Of a stretch of 64,000 bases of DNA, positions 2,739-54,068 are shown one piece after another; positions within the stretch are counted from its first letter, which is position 1, and each line of letters begins with the position of its first letter. The notes below the pieces were generated by a model. The model was not told the DNA's origin. It searched no databases and was given only the letters and a program-made list of their open reading frames with translations. A program made the position numbers and the translations under genes. Source of the stretch: Saxidomus purpurata (taxonomy: Eukaryota > Mollusca > Bivalvia > Venerida > Veneridae); the NCBI GenBank assembly GCA_022818135.1, contig JAFMSR010000027.1, forward strand, positions 96,699-160,698, in the 5' to 3' direction.

Positions 2739-4726
2739 AATCAAACAAAAAATGAAATGGTTTGTAACTGAAGAATACTGAGATTGACAATGTTTCATAT
2801 TATTATTTGTTGATATATAGTAAATGTATGATGTTCTTATATAAGTTAAGGTGTACAGAGTAACTAGAATAAAATGATTATGGATTGAGAATTCCTAAAA
2901 GGAAATGATTATGGATTGTGAATATCATAGAGAGTTACTAAAAGACTGAAATATATTACTTGAAAATGAATATAGTCTAATAGTTACCAATAAATATATG
3001 TAATTGAAAGGTACGACATAGGTGATTACATACACCATCTGAGAGAAAAATCATTGTTTAAATGGTTATTCCATGCTATTATTAAATTGTAAATAGTGTG
3101 TTAATATCTATATATTGATTCGGATTTCTTGTTTATTTGTTATATTATAATTATTAAAAAAAAACTGATAATACTTGCAAGAGTAATCCCTCTTTGGGAT
3201 GTGTAGAATAGAAATTTCAATACACTACAATCATAGATCTAGTTTTTAATTTCATCTAGATTCATTGAAGTTTGAACAATTTGTTAAAAAAATCAAATTT
3301 TGTATACACTCTTTTCTTAGTAAATATAGTACATACATTCACTTTAAGCATTAATCATTGAAATTTAAATCGAATTGAATGTTATAAAGTACTTATTATT
3401 AGAAACAATCTTTAAAAACACCTAAATGTAAGGGATATGACCCTGCCTACATGTAGAAATGGTGTTTGAATAGTTCAACAGTATATATTTTAAGTCTATA
3501 TTTCAGCAATCAAATGTTTGAAGTACATCTATGCTATCCTGAAGGAGCACATAAAACAAAAAGGAAGGAGGCAACTGGCCAGCAACGTTACGCTATCATA
3601 CTTGTGCCAGGAACGTTATGTTATCAATTGTGCCAGGAAAGTTATGTTATCATACTCCATAACCCGTTGAAAATGCCGATCATTCTGTGAAACATGGAAA
3701 GGAAATACAAGGAAATAGAACAAAAGCAGGAAACGATAGAGAGGGAAGTCAGAGAAACGTATGGACGATATAAAAGTGATTCCTTGTTGGGTTGATAGTG
3801 ATAGTGACATTGTTTTCTTAAATTACTGTGTTGAACTATAAACTGTTTATCAACTATCATTTCTTTCTCAGTGGTACATTATAAGATGTATAATATCATA
3901 TTATTAATCGTTAGAATAAAGTGCTGTTATCATATTATTATATATCGAGCTGATACATTTATTTACAAGTTAACTTCATTAAAAGATATTGAAATGCCAC
4001 TCTTTATTAAAAACTGTATGAACTTCGTTATTGTGCTTTTCAACTGAGATAATTTTTGTATTAAGGTAAAAATATACAATCAATAGCAGGATATGATAAT
4101 CAATTTTGAGCAAGGTAATCAATTACATGATGATTACAGTGTAATCATGTAATCAATTAAAAAATCGATGATTACGATTAATGATTACCCCAGGTCTGCG
4201 TTCAAACCCTGGTGTCCTAGAATACGCTAAAACGTGTATATCTGACCATCTTCTGTTCGTCTGAGAGATTAGCTATATCCTACAACCATTAGACAATTGT
4301 GATCAATTTGTGTCCGCCACAAAGTGTGCTGCTACCAGAACTTGGCCACTATTACAAAACAATAATTAAGACAAATTTTCAATCAATAACGTTATATAAT
4401 TTCTTCACTTAACGAATTATTTGATCAACTGATCAAAAGATGCAAATACAGAAAATTCTACCAATTTCTGCCGTGTATTCTCTCATCTCCAAAGAAGTTT
4501 TTCAAGTTCTCTTCAGCAACGACGTCGACTGTCAATGGCGGTAAAATCGACGTTTAAATTCATAACTGGTTTAATCATGCTCCTGTTGTTATTTCAAAAA
4601 CACCAAAAGGCTAGCTCTTTGTCTGAAGAATACGCAGATATAAAATTGAAGATGTTTTGCAGTCGGCATTAACAACGCTCCCGTCTCAATTTTAGTTGAA
4701 TAACATAAACAAATACATAGGGTTGT
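2739..4726. other. Non-coding AT-rich stretch after the retrotransposon
   Basis: No convincing coding potential on either strand. Part of it may be the 3' LTR of the Gypsy-like element, but with the 5' LTR outside the window no direct repeat can be matched. It contains a short tandem repeat at 3578-3656 and, at 4190-4220, a weak tRNA B-box-like string (GCGTTCAAACCCTGG). Confidence 0.5.
3578..3656 (+). repeat. Three-unit tandem repeat, about 26-28 bp
   Basis: Three adjacent diverged units begin GCCAGCAACGTTACG (3578), GCCAGGAACGTTATG (3606) and GCCAGGAAAGTTATG (3632). Each continues with a variant of TTATCATACT. No function evident. Confidence 0.7.
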
Positions 4727-5479
4727 TTGAGTATCTTAAATCTAAAAGACATCTCGCATTTAGATCAAAGCGATGAAATAAACCTGCAACCAAGGTTACT
4801 AAAAGAGGTAAGAGAGATCAAAGTGGAATTAAATATTGATATTGAGTTAAATAAACATTTCAAAAACATTTCAAATATCATTGAAAAATCACCCTTTTGG
4901 CATGAAAATTTTCATGATCTAACAACGTCTCTTGACGCCAAACTCGGACATAGAATAATTGATTTAAATTACATCACATCACTTGAAGTTAATCATAATA
5001 TAGATAAACTTGACATAAATAATTCTACTGGGCTTGATGGGATTAATAAGCAATACTGGTTTAGGGAAAATTATTCATGTACTACCTCACTAACGAGATT
5101 GATAGATGAATGGGTTGAAGATCTTGAAAGTCGCAAAGTTTTAGGACTAGTGAACCATAACATTCTGCTGCATAAACTAAAATTAAGCAATTTTTCACAG
5201 AAGGCCTTGCAGTTCTTTAAATCGTATCTGACGAATAGGCAACAACTTGTTAAAGTTGGAAATACAGAATCTAATATACTCACTATAAAATCGGGTGTGC
5301 AACAAGGGTCCATACCAGGACCCTTGCTGTTTCTTATCTATATAAATGATATAGCGTTTTGTAATCATAATAGCATGACTATCGACTTATTTGCAGACAA
5401 TTCAACATTATGTGAAGCTGGTTATTTTTTAACTAACACTGAATCGCAGCTCCAAAATAATCATAATTGTAATAAATAA
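4727..5479 (+). pseudogene. CR1/Jockey-like non-LTR reverse transcriptase, internally deleted
   Basis: Remnant of a LINE reverse transcriptase, which would copy its RNA into DNA at a nicked target. Visible blocks in order: NNSTGLDGI (finger, about 5020-5046), SCTTSLTRLIDEW (about 5080), LVNHNILLHKLKL (about 5147), VQQGSIPGPLLFLIYIND (about 5299-5352) and LFADNSTL (about 5386). Two deletions are evident against the family: most of the region between the STGLDG block and the SCTTSL block is missing, and the catalytic F-D-x-x-K-A-F-D block before LVNH is gone. The second catalytic motif reads FADN instead of FADD or YADD. The fragment is inactive. N-terminal and C-terminal LINE domains are not seen. 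Confidence 0.83.
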
Positions 5480-7053: not shown

Positions 7054-8353
7054 TTAAATATCGGGCTTCGTATATATCAATATTGCAGCTTGTATATGTA
7101 TAATTTTGAAAATAACCAACGCAAAATGCTAGAATTTGACAAGAAAGCCGTCTAAATAGGTTAATAAACAAGTTGGCCTGTCTGTCTCATTCTTTTTGCT
7201 TCAGCTAAATGCCAGTTTTACGATAATGCAGGTGTTTTATCATTTCAGGTAATACATCATTCAAAGCTGGCGGAGTCGGAACTTACAAATTTTGTGTGTG
7301 GTGGCCTGTATTGACAGATACAAATGAAAATAAATATAACAGAAAGTTGGGTTCCTAATATTTCACTAGGATAGGCAAACATTTTCTCTATATTTAATAG
7401 GAACTGCTATAGAGAATAATATAATTTGGATTTAACTATTGCAATCTTCATTATTTTAGAAGTATAAATCAGGGATTTATGTCTTTTTTAAATTATGATT
7501 GTCACTTTGAACGGTTATACATGTAACACTTTAAGGCCCATGAGCAATAATAATTTCTTCCGGTAATTCTAACAATCCAAAATTCCTATATCCATAATGT
7601 TAAACTAATTCAAAAGTCTTTTGAATATAAGCAAACAAGAGTAAAACTCCAACACCTGCAATAAAAGGACAATCTCCTATTCTTACATTATTTTCAACAA
7701 TGTAACAAAGATTGTTTAAGGGAAAACAGAATTTGGCATATACATATATAAATGCAATCAATACATTCTCCTAAACATACATTGAAACATGAAAATGGAT
7801 GCAAGAGGATGATATGACGTTTTGCAGCTGCTAACATTCCAAGTAGTTGTTCATTTGTAAATATAAGCCCGAAGAAACTACACGTATACGCGTTGGAGTT
7901 TTAATGCCTTTTTTCAGATATGCGTAGTGTAAAAAGTGTCTTGTTGGAGGTGACAGCGCACATTCTCTCTAAGTTTTATTGCAGTTACATTACTGGAAAA
8001 GTCTAAAAGATTTCTAACTGTAATAAGACCTGACTTAAATATTGGATTTAATCAAACATATTCATGACGGCTTATGATTGAACGAACTTTGAAAGTGTTT
8101 GTGATACTTCGTTTGTTATAGAGATATTGTGTTATTACTGTGCTTGGATTATTATTCATGAATCCTAATATATACCATATCATAATGTGTGAGGAATTTA
8201 CTCACCGCACTTGATTAACTATGCATTTCGAATAAATCAGCTTTAAGTTTTATTGTGGTTTTGTTATTACGTGCTTAGATAGTTACTGTGTTACGATCAG
8301 CATGTTATAATTTTCTTATAACAGGTTTTTGAAGTTCCTCTTAGATTTGTAAC
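7054..8353. other. Intergenic, no gene seen
   Basis: AT-rich non-coding sequence up to the target site of the 10.4-kb transposon. No coding or RNA features supported. Confidence 0.5.
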
Positions 8354-8359
8354 AGGTTA
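8354..8359 (+). other. Target-site duplication, left copy (AGGTTA)
   Basis: AGGTTA directly abuts the left terminal inverted repeat and is repeated at 18731-18736 directly after the right one. The bases outside the two copies differ (aac before, aaa after), so the duplication is exactly six bases. Confidence 0.9.
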
Positions 8360-8912
8360 CACCGGGGAGTATCACGTGGTCTCAATAGTACACTGTCCGC
8401 ACAAAATGGCTGCAGAAATCGGCGCTTCAGTCAAGAAATAAGGGGTAAGCTCATTGTTACTGATATCTTAGGATATGCAAAATAGGCGCAAAGTACCCGC
8501 ATAATAAAAACAATTACCTACAAACTCTTCGTTTTTCCGAAGTTTTCTTAGTTTAGGCCTGAAACTCTATACAGATAATATTTTTGTAAGTACATTGTCT
8601 GAACAAACATTTAATTTGGGTATTTCAGCGCTAAAAGCATATATAATTCACGGTCTTCTATAAAATAATGATTTAATGTGTGAATGTATCCTTCGTGAGA
8701 AGTTTCCAGTGATTTTTCGGTTTTTGAAAAAAGTTATGGATTTTTTTCATTGCGAGTACATTGTCTGAACAAAATAATATGAGTACATTGTCTGAACGTT
8801 TTTTCTCAATGCATAGACTGACTCATTTATATCCATTTCTTTGTAGTTTGGGACATGAAAGCAAGCATTTCGCTCCTGATGTTGCCTGTTCATCACGGTT
8901 TTTAGAGATTGG
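8360..8912 (+). repeat. Left terminal inverted repeat, 553 bp
   Basis: Pairs with 18178-18730 with one mismatch. It begins CACCGGGGAG and contains a perfect CACGTG palindrome near the tip. It holds three exact copies of AGTACATTGTCTGAAC and, read inward from 8779, an open coding stretch ending at a strong splice donor (CAG|GTAAAA) three bases past the TIR boundary. Confidence 0.95.
8387..8797 (+). repeat. Subterminal 16-bp repeats in the left TIR (mirrored in the right TIR)
   Basis: Exact copies of AGTACATTGTCTGAAC lie at 8589-8604, 8755-8770 and 8782-8797. A diverged copy, AGTACACTGTCCGCAC, lies close to the tip at 8387-8402. All are in the same orientation and are mirrored in the right TIR. 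Repeated subterminal motifs are the usual form of transposase-binding sites; binding here is inferred. Confidence 0.75.
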
Positions 8913-11900
8913 CAGGTAAAAGTAAGAGTTTTTCTTTGATCCAATGTTCATGAACGATACCTACTTCTGTAAAGAACTGAAACTTTTCATAATGTAAGAT
9001 GGTTATTTTTAAAACAATTTTATATCTGGTCTTCACCGTCTGTAATTCATAATTTTACTGTGTGAAGAAAAAAGTTTGTGTTGGTGCACTTGTGTATCAT
9101 ACAACTGATACGGTTATTTAAGCAACTGATAAATACCGTATAGCGGTTTATTTCTGCTGGTGGAATATTTCTGCTATTCTGCGGTCTTTGAATGAAATCA
9201 CATAAATATTTATAGCAGAAACACTTTCCAGCAAAAATGTAATAGCAGATAATCAGATCCTTTTCAATGGATATCATAATACACCAAATAGCCGTGTCCG
9301 ATATCATCGGATTCATTATAGAGACAATGTAAACTATTTACGAGCAATTACCGTGAATGGTGATTGCAGACACATTGTATTTACATGATGTTTGCTCAAG
9401 CATTTAACTGAAACGTTGTTTGAGAGTTTCTATCATTTATTTATTAAAAGTGTTAAATATCTCCATATATACGTTTAAACTATACAGCATTTCATAGGGG
9501 ACTAATAAACAAACATGAGCATCCTACGGAAAAGATATGTATGTTATTCCTGAAAATGAAGTACCTTCATATGCACAACGTGTATACCGGTAATTTGCAC
9601 AGAGAGTATTGTTGTAATATACTAACTCTGATATTAAAATTTTAGTTACCTTCTGCTAAGTTTTTATTTCACTACCCACACTTGACCATAACGAAAATAC
9701 ATGTTTGCGTCACTTTCTTGTTAATCTTACCACAACGTTTCATTAAAAAAGACTCATCCTACTCTTGAACGAAAACTCCTAAATTTCTCATCCTTGTTAA
9801 CCTAAAACTCAGAAATAAAAAACGCAAAAGGTTTTGCTTGCTGTTTCTGTAGGTAAAACACATATTATTTTGACTGTGGAAAATACCCGCTATACGGTAT
9901 ACAATACATGTTTGTTGTATTTTATTTTCAGAATGCGTCGAAAGAAGCCCTCGTTGTCACTTCATCGACAGAAGAAGACACGAGTGGATCAAACTTCACT
10001 TCAAAGATCCTCAAAAACAACCATGCAGCGGAAAAGCGCAAAACGGAAAACATTTTTTTCCCCAGCCAAATGTCCAAATATAGTATGTCTTCAAGAAATG
10101 ACACCAATACTGTCGCCGATGAAATCACCATTTCGTTCTCCGCTTTACAAAGTATCGCCACCTAAAAAACGTGCGAGGAAAATCTCATCAGCACGAGTGC
10201 TTTTCGAACCATCTGACAGTCGTTCTTCTTCAGAAACTGAAATCAACTGTAAAAGCTTGGTCGAACTTGAAAAATTTGAATTAAATTGTGAAACTGTTTT
10301 TGTAAGTGATGTAAAGTGTCTTCAACACATTGGTAAATCAAGTCATGAACGTGAAAAGGTAGATGTCACAACAGAAACACTTCAGACTCAAAAGGGCTCT
10401 AGTCTGGAGAAAGTGGATTTTGAATGTGATGTGAGTATTGAAAACAGTGATCTTGAACATGATGCAGTTAATCTTGAAAGTCTTTCAAACATGACAGTGA
10501 GAAATAATGTTGAAGTAACATTAGACAAGTCAACAAGTTATTCGTCTGAAAGTGGAAGCAGTGGTACTAATAAAGCTTCAGAATTGCAGTTCACAGATGC
10601 AAGTCTGTCAGAAGTAATAGCTAAAATTCAAAAGCTTACCCCAAAAGTAATCAATTTGCTAGCATCAGAGGACAGACTGGAACTAGTGTTGCTTCATTTT
10701 TTTGAACAAGTATGCGACAAACGCTTTCCGTTGGACAATATGTCTTTTCGGCTATGGACGGAAGTCGTTAAGTGGTTTGAGTGCAATACCTCCACCGAAA
10801 TGCGATATTCAGAAGTTACAAAACAGTTCTGGAGATTAGGTTACAAATTGTTCGGAGCGCGATTTACCAATTTCATGGGTGGTTACAAACACCACGGTCA
10901 AGTAGTTAGAAGTGAATCTTTAAAGGGTTACTATTCTCCGGCTTCTGCAAGCATAAACTTTGCCGTCCCAAATGACAAAATCTTACGACAATTTGTGATG
11001 TATGACAATTGTGGGGAACGCACCCCGGGAGTATTTGGGGATGCTATTGAGCGATTGAGTCAAAATTTGAAACAGAAATCGTGTTGTCTAACTTTCGACG
11101 GGAAAAAGTTAAAACAGGGCCTCACTGAAAAGGGAGGTGATGTGGACCTATTAGGATTTGAACAGAATGCAACACTTAATGACAGAAAATTAGTATTACA
11201 GTTCGGACTACAAACCATTGAAAACATGCGTGAATGTGTAACTGTTTCTCAGGATTTTTTGATGATTAGAAGTTCAGAGACAAACGATAATTTGAAAGCC
11301 TTGCTGTTAGAGTTTTTGCAAACAGCAACACAAAGCATCATCGAAATGAGAAAGTTGAGATCACGGAAGGAGTACGCAAAAGGCAAATTTATTGAAAGGG
11401 GTGGCAATTTGGACTGGAGACGAGGGAGATACGCATATGCCGTTAGCGCGATTATTGCATTCCTGTTTGATTTGGACACTTTCCTTAACGAAGCTGTACG
11501 TGTCACAGACGAAATTAATATGTGCATTGCTGGACTCAATGGCCAAGTGTACAGCAAGGTGAACGTCATCGACGTGGAAAACCACATGAAGTTTTTCGGT
11601 ATAAAGGATCAAAGTGGATCTAGCGACAATACAAGACTCGTTCCACAAAGAACGGAAAAATGGTTTGAATGTAGAAAATTGGCACGGATAACAGGAAGTA
11701 CATTGCATTCTGCTTTGGGGTTTGAAGGATTAGGTAAGCAGAGAAATCATTTTGACAGAGTAATTTGTAAGATTGCAGATAATGAGCCATCACCTCAGGC
11801 AAAATTGGCTATGGAACATGGTACTCGAAATGAAATCAATGCTGTTTCAACACTACTAGGTAGGATTTTGCCAGTACTGGAACCGGATCTAAATTTTTGC

Positions 11901-14900
11901 GAAGAAGGTTTTGTAACAGTTCATATGGATGAGCAGCATATCGGCTTTTTTGTTGTTTCACCGGACGGTAGCTTGCGGGAAGACAACACATTAAACTCGA
12001 ATCGCGTTGCAATTGAAATCAAATGTCCGTTTACAAAAATTCATGAAGAGTTTCCACCACGCTATTATTTGAAATGTCTGTCAGAAATAGAAGTTTTAAA
12101 CACAAACTACCTTTTGTTTATTAGTTGGACAGAAACAGAAACACTAGTGTACAAAGTTAACAGAGACAAACAAATATTCAATAGAGCTTTGAAGTTAGCT
12201 ATGTCGTTGTATGGCGATGACATACCCAAACGACCTACCAAACTGTCTGATGAGCAAAAAGCTTTAAAGAAGGAAATAACTATTCTTAGTAAGGATATTC
12301 CTCTTCTCGGCAGATTTGCATCATGCAAAGCAGGGACCGTCTCCCATTCAGAACCTGTTGCATACGAAATAACCAGAGAATGTGTTGATGATCTTTTGAG
12401 TGACATGTGCACAGTCAAGAAATCCCTGTATCAGTTAAAAAGAGAAAAAGCATCAGAAGCGGTGGTGTTCTTGGTAGCTGATTTAGATCGAAGCTGGGAG
12501 ACTGACAGCATCCGGGCAGGTCCTGTAGCATGGTTTCCGAAAGGTTACAGTCTTACGGTGGAGACAATGAGACGCATTGCTGAGTATGTCCATACAGAAT
12601 GTCACAGCAAAGGTATACATATTCCTTGTGTATCCTTCGATGGACAGTGGCATAATGTGGTAACTAGAACGACAGAAAATAAGCCACTTACAATTCACCA
12701 GCTTCAAAAGAATGTGTGGAAAGCTGTAGAAAAGTTAAGCAAGAAAGAGATTGTGTCTAAAATCAAAGAATTAAACAAAGAACCACATTGGAACAGTAAA
12801 ACCATTTGTGATGACAACACAACGATATCGAAAAAAGTTTTAATTGCCACAAACTTCGGTAAACGTCTGCCAAAATTGCCAAAATTTCCAAAAACGCTTC
12901 CAAAGCCTGTTAATGAACACAACGATGAATCCGATGATACAGGAAAAGCTATCACATTAGCAGATGTAATGCCTGATCCAGTTCAGAACACATGTGACCT
13001 GAATTCAAACGTTCTGTCAATGACTACAGTTGAAGACAATTTGGAATTTGAAGCTTATGCTGGAAATATTAATGAAATGGAATGGGCCATGGAATTAAGA
13101 GATGAGCAGCAAGAAAATGATGAAAATGAACAGACAGCAATAATGGAAGGAGATTTTCAACCGACACAGAATTATGAGAATACGCAGTTGCTCAACTCGG
13201 ATGAGTCATGCCAGACTGTAACACGAAATCCTAAAAAAGTAGACTGTATACAAAAACCATTAGAATTAAAAGATTTTGAGTCCATTGTAAGGCTATTACG
13301 AGCAACAGGAAACTGCAACAAGAAGGGGAAATGGGACAATATCCAGGCAGAAGACCTAGCACTCGTTTTTGAGTCGCAACAAAGTCTTGGATCACTTCTC
13401 GATTCAGAACTGCGAGTTGTCATTAAGTATTTGAAAAAGGTTAAGATCCTGAAAAGTTTAAAATAATCTGTCCCAAAAGGTGTAAAAGTAAGAGAAATTT
13501 CAAAGGTATTAACTATTGCAGGAGAATTGCCACAACAACTCACTAAAAGGAAAAGCTCTAAAACACACACAGTTAAGTCATTGACAGAGATGGCCACCAA
13601 AGTGATAACAAAATTTAAGAAGGAACACTTGAATGTAATTGAAGCTGAATATGAATGGCTTGACGCGTACAACAAGTGGCAGATGTCAATGATTGACGTT
13701 AAGGTAGATGGTACTGAATATGAGTGGTTTTATCATCCCGAATACAGCATTGAACGACAACAATATGAGGTCCGATGCATAGATTCTACCCATTTATTGA
13801 CTCGGGCAAGAAGGAAAAGTTGTCATGGGGGTTTAGACGGACTATCCAATGAAGCATGGCTTAACGTGGCAAAATCAAAGAAGACATTGCTAACACCGAT
13901 AATGATTACAGAAGTCACCGATCCAATGTCAGCTGCAATGTCTAAAACACACTTTTCAACGCAAGTTGAAACAGAGATGAGGAATAATGGTGACATAGAA
14001 AGCGCCGACTTGTGTCATGATATCAGATGTTGGTGGGAGGCTGAGGATAAGCCTGGTATAAATGCACAAGAAAGAGTTATGCTTCGGCAACATCTAAGGA
14101 ATCGACTCCTCAGCAGAAAAAACTTCTGCGAATTTCCACCTGCTACAAATTATGCTCGAGGATGGCCTATACAACTTTGGGAGGGAATCCTAGCAAGTAT
14201 TGACGCAAAGTGTTTGCTGTATTCCCTGACGAAATCAGGAACGTATAACCAACGGGCATTCAGTATTATGATTGGAGAAACGTTCTTCTCCGAGGTTTCT
14301 TTGCACGACAAAAGGGGACAAGGAACACTTACAGCAATGGAGTTTGGCATGCATATCGGCAATACGATCGAACAAATCCAGACAAGGTTGGACCCTGATA
14401 GGTAATGCCCTAAAGTACATGTATCGCGTTTTAAAGTATAATATTTCTATATGCTCTTTTTTTTCTGAAGTTTTTGTCGTAATTGAAGTAAAGTTGATGA
14501 GGTATTAAATATCAGTATGTATTTAGTCACCTTCTCAGAGAAACAAAGTGTGTTTGTGAGTGTTTGGAATGGTGAAAGTAAGCGTATTCAAAACTTTGCA
14601 CCTGGTCTTTGTAGGTCTTTGCAGTAATTTTTCACAAATAAAACTAAAAAAAGTTACCATCCGACTATCTATTGCACATTTAAAATTTTGCAATTGGTTA
14701 GAAATATTACAAATAGCTTAAAATAGTCATTTTATTCACAGATCTTTCAGTTACTGTACAAGTAAAAAGGCAGTGTATGAGATGGTCGGCAAGGCAGATA
14801 AAGAGCAAGAGAACACGGAAGTCAACGAGTCTAGTCTTGGTCACATGATACCTTATAACATTGTAACAAAGTAAAGAACGTTTTTTGTATTTATTTTAAT

Positions 14901-15472
14901 TATTTACAAATTAAAATTCCTTGTACAAGTTAGTAACATGTTTATAAATTGTCATCATGAATGTTGTAAATGTCACGGCCTTTGTGTCATAGTCCTTGAT
15001 GTCGATGAGCACATACCTTAAACGTTTGACCTAACTCAAACCCGTTCAGTATCTGTACATAAAACCTGGTTCATCAGATACATATGATACTACTCACACG
15101 TTACAAAGTTTTGTTGAACACGGCATTGTTATCTTAAACCAATCTTTAATTTAATTGGCGTCGACCCATTTAAACATCAGTGCTGCTTGGTAAACCTTTT
15201 CATAATGAACATGACATTGCCATTGACCAAAAAAATAAGATTTCTTAATCTTTGTCTAAGCTCCTTTGCTTAAAAAGATAGTAAAACAATTTCCTTACAG
15301 AGATCATCATTTTGACACGGCGCAACGGGCACGGGTGTCGGGAAGCAAGAAAGTTGGCACCATTTCAACAGAAAGGAACGCCCTGCAGAAAGGTGCACTT
15401 GGAGTGCGCTGGGAGAAGGCTCGCTGTAACCAAGCTAAACTGTTACCGACCTCTAAGATGGGCATTGAGTAG
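8779..15472 (+). CDS. Spliced transposase-like protein with embedded YqaJ nuclease domain
   Basis: Likely the transposase/nuclease of the element. Proposed exons: 8779-8915 (inside the TIR), 9932-14401, 14742-14870 and 15301-15472. Donors are CAG|GTAAAA, AG|GTAATG and AA|GTAAAG; acceptors are TTTTCAG, TTCACAG and CTTACAG. The exons total 4,908 bases, an exact multiple of three. One in-frame TAA remains at 13464, inside a possible 81-base intron. The N-terminus is basic with NLS-like PPKKRARK. Candidate RNase H-fold motifs, numbered from the ATG at 9933: TFDGKKLKQGL (D389), CVSFDGQWHN (D903) and MIGETFFSEV (E1449, counting through the stop). A YqaJ-type domain lies between the first two: WFECRKLARITGST (about 577), EHGTRNE (E628), SPDGSL (D678) and EIKCP (E695, K697). 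I recognise the whole as a family of uncharacterised cnidarian/mollusc proteins. YqaJ is well supported by motifs; the DDE assignment is inference. The apparent TTG-start frame at 13527 is only its continuation. Confidence 0.8.
13440..13520 (+). other. Possible 81-bp phase-0 intron removing the only stop codon
   Basis: The long reading frame is interrupted only by TAA at 13464-13466, and the same frame is open on both sides. A GT..AG segment from GTTAAG (13440) to TTGCAG (13520) is 81 bases, falls between codons at both ends, carries TATTAAC as a branch-like string, and contains the stop. The donor is mediocre and the pyrimidine tract weak. A simple nonsense mutation is the alternative. Confidence 0.4.
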
Positions 15473-17132
15473 CAATACTTAAAACGTATTGAACAAAAGC
15501 ATTATACATGTACATGTACTATATAATAATACCGATTTTAAACGGTCATCATACAGTTTTTCTTAATTCGTTCTTTGTTACTACTGTTAGTAAGTGTTAG
15601 ATGTTCAATGTATATTATATGCATTATGAATCTTTGCCATGTAAATTAGAGTACTGAAGTCTTTGTGTATTATATTAAAAATTTATTCTCAAATTTTGAT
15701 TTGACCTTCAAGTCACGATTATGTGAAATATTGGAAACAGTGAAATATCATAAAGTATAATGTCTTGACATGTATATGTTATGAAACTCTTTAATGTTTT
15801 GTAGGTTTTAGTAGTTAATTCTTACTAGAATACAGGTAGCGTGTAAATCGTGTAGGAAATAAATCACATGTCGATATTGATTACAATGTCTAAAGTTCCG
15901 TGTAATTGTATTTTTTACCCTTGTGTATCGGCAACGCCTGTTTTTATCAATTCTTATAGATGGTGTTGTTGAATTAAAGTCTAAACATAATTATACAATG
16001 TGCTTATCATTATAACAAAGAGAACATAAACTGATATTGTATTGTTCTGTTTTGAAAAATGTGCGCATATCTTTTCAATTTCTATGTTTTTGCATTCTTA
16101 GCACGACACATTTTGTTCACTTGCGATAACGGGAATAAAGATAAATACTAAGAGTGTATTTATGTTTTATTTATTCATTTATATTCATTTAAAGTATATC
16201 TTTACTTCATAATCACAGTCAATTATCACAATTATTGTAAAATCAAATACATTATTGCACAGTAACAGATCATGGCAATTTACTTTTCTAGTGGATAATA
16301 CAAAATGAGATCATGTCATAAGGTGAATAAAAACTAGCAGTATACATTTCAAATCTGACCATATCTTAAAAAGTACTTACTTTTTATGCGAAAATTTATT
16401 ACCATGTTGCTAAACATGAAAGGTTCATGTGAACGAAAAACAACAATTAAACCATAGATACATTCAGCACCGGTGATAGTACGACAACACTGACTTATAA
16501 CAAATCAGCAGAAATACATGCTTTATAAGATACAAAAGATTTTATTCTACCGGGCTGCTGATATAAACAAACTATATGGGGAAAAATAACATTTTGTCTT
16601 GAAATAGTTCCAAACATCATGCAATTCTCGTTTAAAATGTGGCCATATGAGTGATAGGCATTCACAGCACGCTGTTTGTAAATAAACTAGCTAACATTTA
16701 AATGAATAATGATTACGATATGTATTACATGTGAATTTAGGAAACTCGCGAAATCCTGTTAAATGTGAAATTCAAATTACATGTAAAGAAAGTAAATGTG
16801 AGCACATTGCATTTATAGATATACATTGTATATATAAAAAGTCAACAGCTATGGTGCATGAATGGTTGAAACCGTTTCAAAAATGAGGAACAACTTTTCT
16901 ATTTTCAGGCCTTTTTAACAATACAATGTATTGCAATTTAAGTGAAGTTTTTGTGTTAAAGACTCTTAATTCCAAAATAAAAAAAGGTTGAGTGTGTTTA
17001 ATGCCTTTGCCTTAGCATACATTGAATTCATGTAGTGTCTAAAATGAATCCGATAATGACAAAATCATCATAATTAATACAAGAAACAGCAACTATAAAT
17101 AACGCAACAAATAACTGTAACTATGTAACTCA
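15473..17132. other. Spacer between the two convergent genes of the transposon
   Basis: AT-rich, no coding signal on either strand. Presumably holds the 3' UTRs and polyadenylation regions of both genes. A candidate AATAAA for the plus-strand gene lies near 15858-15863. Confidence 0.5.
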
Positions 17133-18311
17133 TTATGATTTCTTGGTTACAGGGCACTTTGCCTTATGATTACTTAAACCCTGACTGTATTGGTATGCTT
17201 TTCCACATGTGCATCTATGTTTCTTCACACCCGTATGAGTAGAAAGATGATCGAGGAGAGCTGATTTCAATCTAAACGCCTTACAGCAATCACTACATTT
17301 CCACTTCGGTTTGGCATGATGGACCTTATGCTGATTTAGTTGACCATTGGTGGCAAATGTATGTTGGCAAATTTCACAGCTGAACAGCTTTGGACCATCA
17401 TGTACCGACGCCCTAAAATGTAATAAAATTGTTGTTTAGTGTAAAATAAACTTCATAGAATAAACTAACAAAGGATCCAGTATAACATGCACATTATAGT
17501 CGAACTGATATTTTATGTTCTGGTTTTAAACCGCTGGTATAAGCAATCAATGAACTATAACAATAATGTATATGAACGATCTATGTTTGATACTGTTCTT
17601 TTAACGATGTGCCGCAATAAAACCACAATTTACTTATTAGCAGGTATACAAGTAGTCCTAATGCATGACATCATGTACACAAGACTATTTCCTAATGATG
17701 CACTTAGTATGGAAATACTTTTGCAAACCTGTGCCTTTGAATCTTTGACTTGCTAATAAATAGCTTTCCACAGCATCGATAGGGTGCCTTCCCCTCATGG
17801 CTTTGCTCGTGCTGGTGAAGCCCTGAACGGCCTTTATACCCTTTGCCACAGTGTCGGCAGATCAACGCCTTTCCAGATTCCTGGAAACAAATTTTATAAA
17901 TATATAGATCATGTCTCATTTACATGTTTATTATCAATAATTGAAAAAAAGCTTTATCGTTATATCATATACTTTGTTTCGCTTCTGCACAAACTACATT
18001 ACTGCTTTGTCTATATGATTTATGTAATCTGACACGCATTGCAAATGATAAAGAGCAATTTCCATGAACTTTCATAAAATTAATTCCGTATTCGAAATAA
18101 TTTTTTAGACTATCAACAGACATTTAATCGTCGATTACCTTTAAGTATTTACAACTACGTACCATTCTGATAGATGTCCAATCTCTAAAAACCGTGATGA
18201 ACAGGCAACATCAGGAGCGAAATGCTTGCTTTCATGTCCCAAACTACAAAGAAATGGATATAAATGAGTCAGTCTATGCATTGAGAAAAAACGTTCAGAC
18301 AATGTACTCAT
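17133..18311 (-). CDS. C2H2 zinc-finger protein encoded by the transposon
   Basis: Probable DNA-binding protein, nuclear. Exons on the minus strand: first exon 18311 to 18159 or 18153 (starting inside the right TIR), then 17880-17729 and 17412-17133. With the 18159 donor the total is 585 bases, about 194 residues, in frame. Junctions: TTTCCAG acceptor at 17880, donor CAG|GTTTGC at 17728, acceptor ATTTTAG before 17412. Fingers: CRHCGKGYKGRSGLHQHEQSH (regular); one starting YRCCGKLF with the Cys pair adjacent and H-x4-H (irregular); CEICQHTFATNGQLNQHKVHH (regular); CSDCCKAFRLKSALLDHLSTH (regular); and CTCGKAYQYSQGLSNHKAKC (C-x-C, H-x3-C). It converges on the transposase gene. The first exon is the least certain; a start at the ATG at 17919, without splicing, is the alternative. 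Confidence 0.72.
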
Positions 18312-18730
18312 ATTATTTTGTTCAGACAATGTACTCGCAATGAAAAAAATCCATAACTTTTTTCAAACACCGAAAAATCACTGGAAACTTCTCACGAAGG
18401 ATACATTCACACATTAAATCATTATTTTATAGAAGACCGTGAATTATATATGCTTTTAGCGCTGAAATACCCAAATTAAATGTTTGTTCAGACAATGTAC
18501 TTACAAAAATATTATCTGTATAGAGTTTCAGGCCTAAACTAAGAAAACTTCGGAAAAACGAAGAGTTTGTAGGTAATTGTTTTTATTATGCGGGTACTTT
18601 GCGCCTATTTTGCATATCCTAAGATATCAGTAACAATGAGCTTACCCCTTATTTCTTGACTGAAGCGCCGATTTCTGCAGCCATTTTGTGCGGACAGTGT
18701 ACTATTGAGACCACGTGATACTCCCCGGTG
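18178..18730 (-). repeat. Right terminal inverted repeat, 553 bp
   Basis: Reverse complement of 8360-8912 with a single difference at 18368. Carries the same three AGTACATTGTCTGAAC repeats and the same inward-reading coding stretch, which here runs on into unique sequence before a splice donor. Confidence 0.95.
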
Positions 18731-18736
18731 AGGTTA
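18731..18736 (+). other. Target-site duplication, right copy (AGGTTA)
   Basis: Follows the right TIR directly and matches 8354-8359. Confidence 0.9.
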
Positions 18737-19058
18737 AAATAAATTTTTCAGAATGAATATCTTATTATGTACCTTTTCAGAAACAAACGTGCGTGTAAGG
18801 CATGTAAATTGCGTTAAATTTCACACACAAAAAAAGCTTTAGTTATATCCTCGACAATAATATTTTTGAGAGTATGTTAGTGCGTTCTTTAAAAAATGTT
18901 GCGTAATCAGATACCTCTATATAGGAGGACCGTTTTGCGCCTAATTTTGATATGTGCTATACAAAAGATAAGTATTTTATATCTATAATGAATGATGAAT
19001 TATTTTCTACACAGTTTAATTCACTAAAATGATTTATTTTTATTCACTAGTGAAATTA
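18737..19058. other. Intergenic, nothing recognised
   Basis: AT-rich flank of the transposon insertion. No coding signal. Confidence 0.5.
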
Positions 19059-19880
19059 AATCATCATTTTAATGTCCACTCTGTGAGTAACTGGTATCCA
19101 ATGCAGTTCTTTTAAGACCGGTGTAATATGATCATAAGGCGATGTTCTCTTTATGATTCGAGCTGCAGTATTTTGAAGATTTTCAAGTTTATCAACGTGG
19201 TCTTTGGGACACCATGCAAAAGCCCAATGCAATAATCCAGGCATGGCATGATGAGAGAATATACTTGCGATTTTGTAGCTTCCATATGTAGATATTTCCT
19301 GGTGTGGCCAATTTGACGTAATTGTCCGTATCCTGATGTACAAAATGAACTAATATGATTCTCATGCTCATTTTGGAGTCTAGAAAAGCACCATGATTTC
19401 TCACACGATCAGATTGTTTAATGTCCCCAATTTTCTCAGAAACGGATTCAATATGGTTTTCAATTCTTTGAGAGGTGAATACAATGACTTCAGATTTATC
19501 GGCATTGAGTTGCAACATACTGTTGTTCGTCCAGGGTACAATTTCAATGAGAAAAGGTTTTCAACACAGCGTAAAGCTTCCTTCTGAGAGACCGGATTTG
19601 TTGGTTTAAAAGACAAATAAAGCTGTCCATCGTCGGCGTAAAAATGGTGATTGAGTCCATGTTTCTTGCACATTGCACCAACTGGTTTAGTGTACATTGT
19701 GAAAATTTTGTTCCGAGAACGGATCATTGTGGAACACTATATTTCATTGGCACTGGTTTTGACAATTTACTATCTTTGATCACAGTTTGGTACCTGTCAC
19801 TCAGATATGAAGTTACCTATTCGAGTAGTTTGCCTGCGATACCAAAAATTTGTTGGAGGTGGTGCAATAGTGTCTATTTA
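19059..19880 (-). pseudogene. CR1-like LINE reverse transcriptase, C-terminal half, minus strand
   Basis: Read on the minus strand, remnants run in order: YQTVIKDSKL and YSVPQ-stop-SVLGT (about 19790-19710; the stop replaces the Gly of the PQGS motif), FTMYTKPVGAMCKKHGLNHH, then the intact catalytic motif FYADDGQLYLSF (about 19640-19610). These are followed by LNADKSEVIVF (about 19510) and the post-RT block ENLQNTAARIIKR (about 19170) with HITPVLKELHWIPVTHR. The pieces fall in different frames, so several frameshifts separate them. This block order is characteristic of CR1/Rex-type LINEs. No 3' microsatellite tail is seen. The copy is dead. Confidence 0.85.
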
Positions 19881-33164: not shown

Positions 33165-34498
33165 ACATTATGTGCTGCCCTACCTTTTCGTAAAGCTCTT
33201 TGTAATTCATGTCTCCGTTCGTTATTCTATGGATGAATATGCCTTGTTGCAAGTAAATTTCAACTGGTGTAAGATCTTTTTGAAGAGTTTCGTACTTTCG
33301 TTATAAAATCTTTGAAGTGCATGTGTTGTTTGTTGATTTTCGTTGAGTTCTCGTTACGATTGTCACGTTTCTGTGCTAGTCTTCATTCCTCTTCCCTTTA
33401 GCCTTTTAAGTGGTCTTATTCTTTTTCTCATCCTCTTTGATTTTCATTTCTCTATCAATGGTGTTATGTAACTGTCTTCACTCGAGAGACTTTCATTTAA
33501 AGGTAACTAATTTTTGTCATGATCACTGTCGTCCAATTCTGAAGACTCATGGGATAATTGTTTAGCTTGTCGTTTTCTTTTGTTTTGTAACCATTTCTGA
33601 ATTTGTCACAAGGGAATATCGTCATCTGAAGATTCACTCTCTGGCTGAGTTGGCTTCTCAGACGGTCTCCTTTGCTGAGCTGGCCTGTCAGGCGGTCTCT
33701 CTGGTTGAGTTGGTTTGTCAGGCGGTCTTGCTGGTTAAGTTGGCTTCTCAGGCGGTATCTCTGGTGGAGCTGGCCTGTCAGGTGGTCTCTCTGGTTGAGT
33801 TGGCCTGTTAGATCGTCTCTCTGGTTGAGTTGGCTTCTCAGGCGGTATCTCTGGTGGAGCTGGCCTGTCAGGTGGTATCTCTGGTTGAGTTGGCCTGTTA
33901 GATCGTCTCTCTGGTTTAGTTGGCTTGTCAGGTGGTATCTCTGGTGGAGTTGGCCTATCAGGTGGTTTCTCTGGTTGAGTTGGCTTATCAGATGGTCTCT
34001 CTGGTTGAGTTGGCTTGTTAAATGGTCTCTGGCTGAGTTGGCCTGTTGGATTGTCTCTCTGGTTGAGTTGGCTTCTCAGACGGTCTTTCTGGTGGGGTTA
34101 GCCTGTCAGGTGGGTTCTCTGGTTGAGTTGGCTTCTCAGACAGTCTCTCTGGCTGAGTTGGCCTGTCAGGTGGTTTCTTTGGTAGAGTTGGCTTGTTAGG
34201 TGGCCTGCCTTGTTGAGTTGGCTTGTCAGGTGGTATATGGTTGAGTTGGCTTCTCAGGTGGTCTCTCTGGTTGAGTTGGCCTGTTAGGTGGTCTCTCTGG
34301 TTAGGTTGGCCTGTTAGGTGGTCTCTCTGGTTTAGTTGGCCTGTTAGGTGGCCTCTCTTGTTGAGTTGGCTTGTCAGGTGGGATCTCTGGTTGAGTTGGT
34401 ATGTCCTGCGATATATCTACATATGGTAGCAGTACGTCTGTGCCTGGAAGTGGTGTAGCGTAGATCTCCTCATCTGACCAATTTAGATCTGCGTCCAT
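33165..34498 (-). pseudogene. Proline-rich decapeptide-repeat protein, damaged
   Basis: Unrecognised gene on the minus strand. It starts at ATG 34498 with an acidic head (MDADLNWSDEEIY, then TPLPGTDVLLPYVDI). About 26 ten-residue repeats follow, of the type PNRPTQPERP or PPDKPTQPEI. Next come an acidic/serine stretch (ESESSDDDIPL), a basic stretch (QKWLQNKRKRQAK) and another acidic patch (SSELDDSDHDKN). Further on, at about 33280-33165, a compact block carries DLTPVEIYLQQGIF and NGDMNYKELYEKVG. One repeat has CAA changed to TAA (about 34302), and a TGA interrupts after DDDIPL. The segments after DSDHDKN are frameshifted. The strand is chosen because head, tail and repeats make sense only on minus. 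The plus-strand W/L/S-rich frame over the same repeats is its shadow. Confidence 0.5.
33640..34420 (-). repeat. 30-bp coding minisatellite
   Basis: About 26 units of the type GGTGGTCTCTCTGGTTGAGT + TGGCCTGTTA (plus strand). The period is 30 bases with occasional 27-base units, so the reading frame survives copy-number change. On the minus strand each unit is one decapeptide. Confidence 0.9.
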
Positions 34499-36079: not shown

Positions 36080-36793
36080 AAAACTGTTGGATTATTTCAC
36101 ACTCCCAAAACAAGTGTTGAACGGTTTCTTGAGCCATAGAACAAAAGTCACAAAGATTACTCGGAACTATCTTACATTTAAACAAGAAAACATTATTTGG
36201 AATAATTCCCATTATATATTTGTATTGCAATTCTCTTAATTTACTATCTATTGTACATTGAATTAGTTATATAAATACTTTTTTCCAATTAATATTATCA
36301 TTCTCTCACTTTTGTATTGTTTTATTTTCGGGCATGCTTACATTTTTCACCTCTATAATTATTATTATAAAGCATTTTATTTATTTTAGTTTCTGGCGTT
36401 ATTAAATCAGGTAATCTGGTATTACTGTTCCTTGCATTGACTCCTGTATCATGTTTTGTTTCTAATTTTTGTCTATGGAAGAAAGTAATGAATAATACTT
36501 AAAAAATTAGATGTGTGTATATTATACACATTTTGCAGTTAAGAAAATGTAGAACACTATTATCAAACCATCTTTTTGTAAAAGAATGTGCTTCCAGTTG
36601 AATCAATAATAAATCAGATATTCTATATCATCTGTTCGAAAACGAAGTAATATTCTCACAAAAATTAATAAAACACCACGCGAAAAGAATTTCATCAAGA
36701 AAGGTATACGCTTTTATTTTGAGTACTTCCTTACTATTGCAGTTACATATAAAACAGTGGTGCCGCCTTTTTTAGTTCATTTCTATATATATT

Positions 36794-38251
36794 GTTATGT
36801 TCAGGGAAATGAACAAAACCGTTAACAACAGAATAGAACTGAACTTTAACTGAACTTACTTACTTATGAACTTGTATGAACTGTACTTGAACTGATCTGT
36901 GAGCTATCTCGAATTCATTCCCATTTAAGATGGATTCTGTTGATGTTAACCAGCCATAAAATGTACGATGAGCTAAGTTTCACTATTTAAAGATAAAGAG
37001 ACATTTTTATGAAGTAATTTTGATGAACTTTTACATTAAACATTTATTGTTGCTCTTGTGAAGCACAAAGTGCAAATCTATAAAGTCAACTTGTTATATA
37101 CAATAAACAACAGTATTTTAACTTCTAAATAACTTAGATTGTCACAGATAATGACTTCGTAAAAACTGTAGCTATCTATGCAAGACGAAAATGGCTTTCC
37201 ATAGTTTTTTACGCGCAACGAAAATGGCGGACCAGTAGACCGTGACTGACTATTGACAAAATCAATCCAATAAACAGTGCTTCACAACAAAGTTTAACAG
37301 CCGACAACGTACTTTGTAAAATCTACTGAATAATCTCTAAGAATCAAATGAGCGTAGTTGTCTATCGGAAATTCTAGTATGAACTGAGCTAATCAACCGA
37401 AAATCTGGGCCCTTTTATACCCATACGCTAAAAACAACCCAAAATTGTGGTTGAAGAGGTTGATCAACCTAATTCGGTCGTGGCTGCTTCCACAAGTGAT
37501 CGTTTCTCCCAACAACCTTGGTCGGTTTGACCAGAAATGGTTAAAAAACTAATACTGGACTTTAACAGTAAAAACAATAAAATCTGAAGTTATTCACATT
37601 ATGTATCATATTCAAAGGCTATTTAAACCAGTTCTATACCTTAGGAAAGCTGAAACATGCAATGTTCTGTAGACTCATGTTTTGTTTACAAGTTTGACAG
37701 ATAGTTGTCCGTAACAACCAACTAGATCGGTCCACAATGCATTGCGATTAAATGGCTGCCACAGTGAGAAGTAAACACATTTAACTCAATAAATGCCTAA
37801 ATCTGCAGAAATACATGGAATTAACTAAAGTTACTTAGCAGAATAGTGCAGAAATGTGTGTGCTACAGGTTGCAATAAGATTTCTTAACATGGCAATGGA
37901 TTAAAGTGCAAAAATAATGCATAGAAGTTGGAAATATACATGTATCACGAAAACTGAACAAACTGTGATAGGAATTCAACCGTTCAAAAGTGACTTACAA
38001 GTAGTACAGATTTAAACTAGCTTATAACCTGTATAAATGAGTCTGTGGTTTTGATTTTTAAATGAAACTCATCTCATCGTACATTTTATGGCTGGTTAAC
38101 ATCAACAGAATCCATCTAAAATGGGAATGAATTCGAGATAGCTCACAGATCAGTTCAAGTGCAGTTCATACAAGTTCATTAGTAAGTAAGTTCAGTTAAA
38201 GTTCAGTTCTATTCTGTTATTAACAGTTTTGTTCATTTCCCTGAACATAAC
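36794..38251. mobile_element. 1,458-bp non-autonomous TIR element inserted in LINE C
   Basis: The ends GTTATGTTCAGGGAAATGAA and its reverse complement define TIRs of about 190 bp (to about 36990 and from about 38062) that differ at only a handful of positions by eye. ATT lies directly outside both ends (36791-36793, 38252-38254), consistent with a 3-bp target duplication. No coding capacity. The TIRs contain repeated GAACTGAAC/GAACTT-type motifs. LINE C sequence resumes on both sides, so it is a later insertion. The superfamily is not decided. Confidence 0.85.
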
Positions 38252-39399
38252 ATTATTGCCATATTGAAGAGTTTTCAAATGAATCCTTTTGACCAAACTG
38301 GCTGATAATTATGTTCATTCTCATAATGTTGCATGATAGTATTCATTGCTATTTCATCTAGTTTAGAATCCCATAAAAAGTCAAACATAAGATGGTTTAG
38401 TTTATTTACTAATTCAGTTGGAGGGTTGGTCAACACTGTTAAAGAATGTATAAGGTTTAGGAGAGCAAACGTTTTTAAAACAATCATCTTTATCAGTAAA
38501 TGACAACTTTCACTTTTTCCACATGGCAAGTGTATGTTTGAACTGTGTATTTTTTGGCTCAAAATTAAGTTTGTGTATATTTAATTTGTCATTTGTGAAT
38601 AAGATTCCAAATGTCGTTGCCTGCTCTGATGTCCATCTAAATGATTTTTCGTTACAGTAGGTTAGTTTTGAGTTTCAGAGAGAACGAACTCTCATAACAG
38701 TTCATTTAGAATCATTCAAATGTAAACCGGAAATACGGCTAAATGTGTGTAATATACAAATACGTATTTCAAATGATTTCATGGACTCATGTAAGGAGAA
38801 ACTTGTGTCATCAGCAAACAGTGTTTCTTTTATCTCAACATTTGACAAGCGTATTCATTTTATTTCATGGTTATTTCTTAAAGCCATAGAAAGTATTTCA
38901 ATACATTTAACGGAAATATAAGGCGAAAGAGGAGAGCCTTGACGAGCTCCCTTCTTGATGTTGAAAAATTTGAAGAAGAAAACAACATTGTTTGATATGT
39001 AGCTTTTAGCATGAAAAAAAACCAGATTTACCCATTTTATTAATGATTCTCCGATGCTAAAGTATGCTAAACACTTGAAAATATCTTAAATATCAAAAGC
39101 CTTGTGAAAGTCCCAGAAAAAACAACAATTCCTGGTTCTTTTGTGAAAGTCCCAGAAAAAACAACAATTCCTGGTTCTTCGTTTTAATTAAGTTTGTCTG
39201 TAATATCGTATAAACCCTTAAATTGTCCCTTATATAACTACCTTTAATGAACCCTGTTTTATCCCTTTAACAATGTTTGTTAAGACTTTTTTTTATTTTG
39301 TTTGCAATTGATTTCGATGCTATTTTAAAATCTCACAGTAAATAAAGAAATTGGTCTCAAATTATTGATGTATGTAAGTTTCCTGTCTTTCTTATTTAA

Positions 39400-42751: not shown

Positions 42752-45700
42752 ATGATTCTTGTAAACTCTTTTAATGTAAGTGGATTAGGAAAAAACGACA
42801 AAAGGTAGAAAATCTTTAGATATTTAATTGAAAAAAAAAGACATTTGTTTACTACAAGAAGCTCACTGCTCAGAAAATAATAAAGAAAAATGGAAATCGG
42901 AAGGGGATGGGGAAGCTTTTTTAGCCGTAAAAATAGTTACAAAGAAGGAGTTGCGATATTACAAAACCGTACGTTTTCCGGAAAAATAAATGGATTTAAA
43001 GAAATAATAAATGGACGACTTATATCCATAGACTTAGAACTAAACGAAAGACAATTTACTATTTTTAATATGTATGGACCAAATACAGACAGTTGTGAAA
43101 TATTTAAGATATTAAACGACGAAATAGCCAAGAATACAGATAAAAATATTATAATTGGAGGGGACTATAATACAGTAATAGATATAAATAAAGATAAAAA
43201 GCATGGAAGAACAGACACTCACAAAAAATGTAGAACATTTTTAAAGGAAATTTTAGACACTAATTCACTAGTAGATATATGGAGATTACTAAATCTAAAT
43301 AAATTTCAATATACATGGCATTCGAATTCAAAACCTGTTATTTTCAGTAGACTAGATTACTTTCTCATATCAGATACAATAGTAAATATAGTAAAATACT
43401 GTAAAATAGTACCGGGTTATAAAACTGACCACTCAATAGTTGAACTATCAATTGATTTTATAAAGGATGACCGAGGCCCTTGGTACTTCAAGTTAAATGA
43501 TAACTTATTACTGGATGAAGAATATCAGAACAAAATAAAACAGAGTATCATCGAAATAACAGACATTAATAAAAATACAACTCCTAACATACTATGGGAA
43601 ATAATAAAAGGTAACATAAGAAATGAACCTATTAAATATGCAACATACAAAATGAATACGGAGAGAACAAAAGAAAAAAAGTTAAAGGAAGAAATAGAAA
43701 ATGAACTTATCGAAAAGCAGGGATACTCAGAAGAATTAAAAAGAAAATTGGACGAGAAAAAACAGGAAATAGATAATATTATTGACATAAAAGTAAATGG
43801 CCTAATAATAAGACCGAAAGCGATAAGCATTGAGGGAAATGAAAACAATACCAAGTATTTTGCGAACCTAGAAAAACGAAATGCGAAAAATACAACTATA
43901 TACAAATTGATCATCAAAGACAAAGAAATTACAAATCCAGAAGATATAATAAAAGAAGAAGTAATGTATTATAGTAGATTGTATTCAAAAAAGAACAAAA
44001 CAGGTTCACATGTGTAGGAATACAATTTCTTTGCAGATAACAATTATAAATTGAATGAAGAAGATAAAACAAAATGCGAAGGTCAACTAACGGAAAATGA
44101 ATGCTTTCAAGCACTAAAAGAAATGCAAAATCAAAAAAGTCCGGGGTCAGATGGAATATCCGTAGAATTTTATAAATTATATTGGGAAGATATATAAATA
44201 TTTTATTTAGAATCAATATACTACTCATACAAAATTGGAAAGTTAAATGATCTACAAAAACAAAGAATTTTGTCTTTACTGCCAAAACTAAATAAAATAC
44301 ATCACTATTGATTAACTGGCGACCAATAAGTTTATTAAACGTAGATTATAAAATAGCAACAAAGGCGATAGCAAATAGGTTGAAAAGAGTTTTGAATACA
44401 TTAATAAGTCAATCGCAAACAGGATTTGTAAAAGGAAGGTATATAGAAGAAGATGTACGCACAATATTTGAAACCATCGAAATTTTAAATGAACACGAAC
44501 AACCAGGTTTACTTTTCTTCGCTGATTTTGAAAATAAAACCTTCGACAGCCTAGACCACGAATTCATGATTAATTGCTTAAAATATTTTAACTTTGGCAA
44601 CTCATTTATACGATGGGTAAATACCTTTTATACAGATATATCAAGTATCATATTGCATAATGGTCATTTTCTGAACCTGTTCAGATACAACGAGGTGTCA
44701 GACAAGGATGCCCTCTATCACCCCCCTTATTCATTCTCTGTATAGAACTGTTCACAAATTTTATTGCTAAAGACAAAATCATAAAAGGCATAAAATTCAC
44801 GAAAAAGAAATCAAACAATCCTTATTTGCAGATGATGCAACTTTTTTCAATAGCGGTGCTAAAGAATCATTTGAAAAATTAGTATCAGTAATAACAAACT
44901 TTGAATATGCCTCTTGTCTCAAACTAAATAGTGACAAATCCGTTATTATGCGAATTGGATCACTAAGAAAAACAAATTTAACATATTGTCAGAATAAGAA
45001 TTTTACATGGACGTCAGAAAATGCAAAAACATTAGGTATGATTTTACAAATAATCCACAAAAAATATCACATTAAACTTATATCCAAAACTTATAAATTT
45101 TAAGAACTGTTTGAAACAATGGCAACACAGAAAACTCACTTCACTTGGCAAAATTACAGTTATTAAGTCATTTGCACTTCCAAAACTAATATATCTCTTA
45201 TCGCTACTACAAAATCCACACGAGGACATTTTGAAAGACATTAGTAAAACTATGTATAATTTCATATGGGACGGTAAACCAGATAAAATCAAACGAGAAT
45301 TGCTGACTTTAGAATATGAATTAGGAGGTTTAAAAATGGTAGACATAAAAAAATATATGTATTCAATTAAATATTGTTGGATAAAAAGACTTACTGACAC
45401 TAAAAACAAAGGAGATTGGAAAATATTTTATGAAAATATAATAAAACAATATGGAGGATACCTTATTTTTGATTGCAATATCAGTGTAAAAGACGCAGAA
45501 CAATTATGTCCAAAAAATAGCTTCTTCTCATACATATTAAAAGCGTGGTAAACAATAAAGCCATTCGAGCACAACGTGGACGGAAAACAGATAATTTGGA
45601 ATAACTCTAAAATAAAAATACAAAACAAATGGTTTATAATGAGAACTGGTATGATAAAGGTATATTACATCTTGAACATTTTTTTGATTACAGAATAAAT

Positions 45701-53690: not shown

Positions 53691-54068
53691 TTGTTTGATT
53701 CAACGCTTTAATTGTGTTTCTAATTTCCTTATATTGTTTTCTGTAGTATTATATAGTTCAGATTGTTGTTTCTTATACTTAACCGGCTATCTAATTGACA
53801 CATCTCGTATCCAACCTTTTATTACTTCTCTTAGCGTATTGGGGTTAGCTTCTTTATTTATGTGTGTTATTTATGTTATAGAATTTCGGATTTTTTATTG
53901 ATATTTTCATGTAAGATTAGACTACTATTTACGGAAGCCCTAAAGGGACATTTATTATTTATTACTTATTAGTGATTAATTATTACTTGTAATTTATAAC
54001 TTATTATTTATAACTTATTACTTGTAATTTATAATTTATTATTTATAACTTATCGACATGTACTCATA

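Follow-up and report, generated by a model that had tools for sequence, protein, structure and literature searches.

A bivalve DNA transposon with long terminal inverted repeats and a predicted P-element-like transposase enclosing a YqaJ-type nuclease

Results

The transposon and its insertion site

The window analysed here, a 64,000-bp stretch of the genome of the bivalve Saxidomus purpurata (contig JAFMSR010000027.1, positions 96,699 to 160,698; part of contig C27 of the 1.135-Gb genome that was searched), contains a DNA transposon with long terminal inverted repeats (TIRs), flanked on both sides by the target-site duplication (TSD) AGGTTA. It carries two convergent genes, a large transposase gene, whose product is predicted to combine a P-type catalytic domain with an internal YqaJ-like nuclease, and a zinc-finger gene (Table 1). 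An earlier, sequence-only reading had described a complete DNA transposon with 553-bp TIRs differing at one position and a 6-bp duplication; this description holds in every part, the interval then noted (8354-18736) being the element plus both duplications. Between 8300 and 18800 the TIR pair is the sole inverted repeat of at least 25 nt, no tandem repeats were detected in 8000-19100, and the window gave no Rfam match at the gathering threshold.

An empty-site query, made of both flanks joined through one AGGTTA with the element removed, was searched against the same genome and returned 38 rows: two were the flanks of the window itself and 36 were other genomic places, 25 of which spanned the junction at 65-82% identity. 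The two sites read across the junction (L067 and L068; 82% and 81% identity) show ACAGGTTAAAA, with one AGGTTA and no insert, and the 6-bp duplication is therefore genuine. The insertion site (8140-8359 and 18737-18956) belongs to a host repeat present in many copies; six of the matching places are on C4, at 57.5-57.8 Mb. Flanks of this kind would speak for a segmental duplication, which the sequence-only reading had named as a danger, or an assembly chimera, rather than a product of transposition; given the two empty sites, which exclude segmental duplication, and at least 33 inward-facing pairs of the same terminus elsewhere (see below), we regard this explanation as extremely improbable.

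Table 1. Positions of the transposon, its repeats, genes and predicted functional sites in the window
Feature	Position	Strand	Basis or remark
Transposon, 10,371 bp	8360..18730	.	Inverted-repeat search, flanks, empty sites
TSD, left copy AGGTTA	8354..8359	.	Single AGGTTA in two paralogous empty sites
TSD, right copy AGGTTA	18731..18736	.	Flank reading and empty sites
Left TIR, 553 bp	8360..8912	+	552/553 identical to right TIR
Right TIR, 553 bp	18178..18730	-	Inverted-repeat search
CACGTG, TIR positions 14-19	8373..8378	.	Position identical in all four full-length copies read
CACGTG in right TIR	18712..18717	.	Mirror of left-end box
Transposase predicted exon 1, ATG at 9933, donor GTAATG	9933..14401	+	Homologue comparison
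Transposase predicted exon 2	14742..14870	+	Matches P0005
Transposase predicted exon 3 with stop	15301..15472	+	Matches P0005
In-frame TAA interrupting transposase	13464..13466	+	P0005 and other relatives open here
Candidate catalytic Asp 1, TFDGKK, first RNase H-like strand (93-103)	11097..11099	+	D in 49/50 lettered rows
YqaJ / lambda-exonuclease-like domain, predicted between RNase H strands 1 and 2	11616..12233	+	
Nuclease motif SPDG ... EIK, PD-(D/E)xK type	11964..12023	+	D 52/52, E 52/53, K 52/53
Candidate catalytic Asp 2, SFDGQW, end of strand 606-612	12639..12641	+	D 51/53
Conserved Asp of D-x-x-H motif after strand 987-993	13782..13784	+	D 52/53, H 52/52
Candidate catalytic Glu, GETFF helix (1156-1167)	14277..14279	+	E 48/48
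Zinc-finger predicted exon A, one C2H2 and one CC-type finger (by eye)	17729..17880	-	Pfam; splice sites by eye
Zinc-finger predicted exon B, three fingers (by eye), stop	17133..17412	-	Pfam zf-C2H2 E 1.5e-7

The two genes

The giant open reading frame (ORF) of the element is, as judged from its sequence, a portion of a single gene with two predicted GT-AG introns. ORF1 (from 9834) and ORF2 (13527-14405) share one frame, separated by a TAA that the homologues P0005 and P0001 read through; it falls at codon 1178 of a frame whose final stop is codon 1590. The transposase frame of this copy is therefore interrupted and, unless the TAA is an assembly error, the copy may now be non-autonomous and would probably depend on another copy for its movement. 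The zinc-finger gene of the earlier reading was also recovered: it lies close to the right TIR on the minus strand, comprises at least two exons in the window with about five fingers counted by eye, likely has a further exon upstream of exon A, and is present again in related copies.

Predicted catalytic fold and internal nuclease

The predicted structure of the transposase matches the P-element transposase at the level of the fold, and a P-type RNase H-like catalytic domain with a helical insertion is recovered by structure prediction. The aspartates of TFDGKK and SFDGQW and the glutamate of GETFF are predicted to form the active site of this fold. The predicted model also matches lambda exonuclease, and the PD-(D/E)xK fold and residues of the YqaJ / lambda exonuclease type are found by alignment, model and Pfam matches in relatives. 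PF09588 (YqaJ) was not called in the window protein at Pfam E<=1; of the 21 long relatives, 16 match it and five match PF21787. The YqaJ assignment previously made for the giant ORF is thereby supported, despite the missing call in the window, by the relatives and the model. Lambda exonuclease, LHK-Exo and the YqaJ family (PF09588) are stand-alone enzymes, in contrast with the nuclease described here, which is predicted to lie inside a transposase.

Residue conservation was counted in a 59-row alignment including the window protein, using lettered rows only (at most 57 per column). In addition to the residues of Table 1, a further nuclease glutamate is conserved in 51 of 52 lettered rows, and the PD-(D/E)xK site is predicted to be intact. 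The nuclease residues stay nearly invariant among proteins whose identity to that of the window falls as low as 23%, which points to selection on the nuclease, and in the alignment the RNase H-like site and the nuclease site both look selected.

Relatives of the transposase

At least 77 homologues were found in a protein search in which 7,993 candidates were scored, those named to species being mostly from bivalves; the closest annotated homologues among the matches listed are those of the clam Mya arenaria (P0005, 81% identity, alignment A1). One homologue, P0026, is labelled as a protein of a Candidatus Thiodiazotropha metagenome-assembled genome and is probably DNA of the host clam that was included in a symbiont assembly. 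The 27 hits of a profile search include proteins from amphioxus (P0105), the gastropod Littorina saxatilis (P0064) and the sponge Dysidea avara (P0109). The sponge protein shares the P-type domain, as reflected by a Pfam TNP-like RNase H match above cut-off, an hhalign probability of 97.3 against the C-terminal part of the window family, and a GDVDL motif after the first Asp (by eye) common to that family. It differs in having no YqaJ match at E<=0.01 and 222 residues (by eye) between the two Asp, versus 514 in the window protein. This combination suggests, without proving, that the nuclease entered the catalytic domain by inserting into a loop that was already present and enlarged.

Other full-length copies and a shared terminal signature

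A protein search within the same genome, in which 38 of 444 candidates were scored, yielded at least 44 matches; among those listed, only the window copy itself reached 100% identity, the next three being at 44-46%. Further copies with other flanks, for which the sequence-only reading had proposed to search, do exist: C6 (9,887 bp, TIR 459 bp, TSD TGGTTG), C1 (12,106 bp, TIR about 620 bp, TSD AATTTA, its frame containing one TAA) and C7 (10,236 bp, TIR about 566 bp, TSD ATACT), the TSDs being taken by eye from the flanks. All three have long TIRs, CA...TG ends and the convergent zinc-finger gene, and together with the window copy they agree at TIR positions 1, 2, 5, 7, 8, 12 and 14-19, giving the signature CA..G.GG...A.CACGTG. 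Genome-wide this pattern, derived from the four copies themselves, occurs 542+596 times, versus 2+13 for a reversed control, and the exact 19-base terminus of the window family occurs at 131 places, versus none in the control. The first 100 of these 131 places include 33 inward-facing neighbour pairs at 1.7-5.3 kb and no otherwise-oriented pairs within 15 kb. The ends are probably recognised through the CACGTG box, whether by the transposase, the zinc-finger protein or a host factor.

C13 bears a fifth, more distant copy (L037/L065/L066; C13:46424117-46436385), with 34% identity, which has a transposase gene and a multi-finger ORF of 218 aa on the opposite strand; an array of repeats of ~35 bp lies upstream of the gene and a tandem array bearing CACGTG downstream.

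Non-autonomous copies

Twenty TIR loci, chosen from 41 genomic TIR matches, were fetched, and TSDs were counted at 15 of them (L018, L020, L021, L025 and L026 were omitted because the stretch read did not hold two exact ends). The duplication was 5 bp in 12 loci, 4 bp in one and absent in two; as a control, left and right flanks of different copies shared a 5-bp match in 2 of 210 pairings. Variable duplication length had been named beforehand as a sign against the transposon, and the length does vary in part: three of the four full-length copies have 6 bp and one has 5 bp, and the non-autonomous ones have 4-5 bp or none. We read this as a stagger of 5-6 bp and not as an argument against a transposon.

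Palindromes, whose arms reach up to about 1.5 kb, make up most of the non-autonomous copies. At 16 of the 20 loci the match of both arms to the left end of the element continues past the 553-bp TIR, and at 12 of the 16 both arms include the start of the transposase coding sequence (counts by eye); the palindromes look like products of a left end that was duplicated in inverted orientation. Arm identity was compared in 12 copies, L009, L013 and L019 being omitted as well (arm missing or broken by indels), and amounted to 99.2% within a copy versus 96.9% between copies, with none of 301 random pairings as high; including these three, the values are 92.7% and 91.0%. Arms are more alike within than between copies and so have probably been homogenised. 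The window TIR is 92.8% identical to the TIRs of the 12 copies, which makes the window family a relative of these copies and probably not their direct source. The argument for recent activity formerly drawn from the near-identical TIRs is weakened by the probable homogenisation of arms and by the stop in the transposase frame.

Discussion

Relationship to known transposons

The element had been left without an assigned type. Its predicted P-element-like catalytic fold allows an assignment by structure, and by this modelled fold the element is related to the P superfamily, a further trait of which is GTP-dependent transposition. The THAP domain had no Pfam match in five window ORFs (E<=1) or in 21 relatives (E<=0.01), although an upstream exon may be unrecognised, and the 7-8-bp TSD of the superfamily was found neither in the four full-length copies nor in the non-autonomous ones. 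Since both features are wanting, and an internal nuclease and a second gene are added, we report the element as P-like and not as a P-superfamily member. The same traits set it apart from the Drosophila P element and THAP9, along with its separate zinc-finger gene and the spacing of the first two Asp (73 residues in P, 514 here with the nuclease).

Within the P superfamily, Galileo of Drosophila resembles the element in architecture, having foldback-like TIRs of 0.5-1.2 kb, with interspecies conservation confined to about 40 bp at their tips, and a P-type transposase; the passages on it also describe a THAP domain and a 7-8-bp TSD of GTATTAC-like consensus, and mention no nuclease domain. Given this likeness and the P-type fold predicted here, the element might be an ordinary, Galileo-like member with long TIRs whose nuclease is an inert passenger. 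We consider this unlikely in view of the absent THAP matches, the mostly 5-6-bp TSDs and the near-invariance of the nuclease residues.

Polintons/Mavericks duplicate 6 bp and encode a protein-primed polymerase, a retroviral-type integrase and capsid genes. The window copy shares the 6-bp duplication, but none of these genes was found by Pfam in six element ORFs, including both long ones (three antisense ORFs of >110 aa overlapping the transposase lay outside the scan); a Maverick was rejected, in keeping with the sequence-only reading. Kolobok elements duplicate TTAA and were rejected on the TSDs of the window and related copies. IS3EU always, and GingerRoot mostly, has TA...TA termini with duplications of about 6 bp (PMC10045372), and both were rejected on the CA...TG termini of the window element.

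The presence of YqaJ invites an alternative in which the element is, or derives from, an ISL2EU (PHIS) element, the known eukaryotic transposon group bearing this exonuclease domain; most ISL2EU candidates carry it in a second ORF (PMC4482050). These elements, however, have AT 2-bp duplications and a separate YqaJ ORF, and their transposase resembles IS5/ISL2 (PMC10045372), whereas the window family has mostly 5-6-bp TSDs, a P-element fold match and YqaJ inside the predicted transposase. An ISL2EU origin, which the earlier reading had also doubted, is thus very improbable. KolobokP, a bivalve-rich group with a homing endonuclease, similarly pairs a DDD/E transposase with an extra nuclease, and differs by its long direct terminal repeats, its Kolobok transposase and its separate His-Me nuclease (PMC9587614).

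Two bivalve genome papers place YqaJ genes among transposition-related or viral-type families changing in number, and one states that YqaJ-type elements can fuse with transposase genes; their passages on these genes describe no transposon, no transposon ends and no P-type domain. Likewise, no description of a P-type transposase with a YqaJ domain was found among the open-access papers listed (titles and abstract starts), subscription journals and Repbase Reports being outside this scope. By fold the nearest known kind is the P-type transposon, from which the element differs in the predicted internal YqaJ nuclease, the second gene and the mostly 5-6-bp TSD; the lineage possibly deserves a superfamily name of its own.

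A proposed mechanism and its rivals

The reading that we hold to be probable is that 8360-18730, a DNA transposon for which one AGGTTA served as the target, moves by predicted cut-and-paste through a P-type transposase, with YqaJ likely interrupting the RNase H-like domain of this enzyme. The transposase, alone or with the zinc-finger protein or a host CACGTG-binding factor, would recognise the signature at the ends, cut both ends by P-type DDE cleavage and join them to the target with a stagger of 5-6 bp. With less confidence, we propose that the nuclease would resect 5' ends at the excision gap or at the transposon ends, leaving single strands on which homologous gap repair would be favoured and the long TIRs could anneal by folding back; both processes would in turn raise copy number, keep TIRs alike and throw off palindromic non-autonomous copies. 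P-element excision gaps are repaired by copying a homologous template. Resection by the nuclease would explain both the palindromes and the homogenised TIRs.

Several observations weigh against this interpretation. The Pfam match of the window protein to P transposase is weak and below cut-off, phmmer of the window ORF against PDB sequences gave no match at E<=1, and a profile of the 21 relatives did not list P transposase among PDB sequences, its five weak matches being three viral fusion or spike proteins and two nucleases. TSD lengths differ from those of known P-type elements and vary among copies. Of the 1,138 signature places, the 73 listed on C1 comprise 11 inward pairs and one of another orientation, so that many matches are solo or degraded ends, and no TIR was found in the 12.3 kb read around the C13 copy. 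The nuclease could also act in a step besides resection, or on other substrates, and palindromes and homogenised arms can stem from ordinary host recombination.

The last point constitutes a serious rival to resection. Host recombination or replication at inverted repeats might alone have produced the palindromes and near-identical TIRs, with the nuclease uninvolved, and Galileo too has long foldback-like TIRs, such a nuclease being unmentioned in the passages on it. No decisive counterpoint is at hand, the association of palindromes with a resecting-type nuclease being only suggestive, and we regard this explanation as quite plausible. The wider proposal, that the family represents a lineage of animal DNA transposons at superfamily level whose P-type transposase has taken up a lambda-type exonuclease, so that one enzyme would excise and then resect for homologous copying and fold-back, with resection as an intrinsic part of transposition and palindromes as a by-product, is put forward tentatively, as a possibility that we rate below an even chance.

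Other features of the window

Probable fragments of a Ty3-type long terminal repeat retrotransposon lie at 590-2735 and 4721-5476, with weak gag, aspartyl protease and reverse transcriptase matches. The segments 42857-45215, which has endonuclease and reverse transcriptase matches, and 61669-64000 are 95% identical and probably copies of a non-LTR retrotransposon. A minisatellite-like array, richer in GC and with repeat units of about 30 bp, occupies 33637-34399, and the one ORF tested in it (33630-34196) had no Pfam match. An ORF on the minus strand (53234-53707) matches a GDSL lipase / OSK domain, and a 194-bp inverted repeat pair (36789-36982 and 38063-38256; 96% identical) possibly marks a second, shorter TIR element.

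Conclusions

The shared terminal signature provides a simple route to annotating more than 1,000 repeat ends in this genome. Some of the bivalve YqaJ genes so far counted as recombinases or viral-type elements may be transposases of the kind described here. If the proposed role of the nuclease is true, a transposase with an end-resecting nuclease of its own would allow direct tests of how transposition and homologous repair are linked, and would account for the origin of foldback and palindromic elements.

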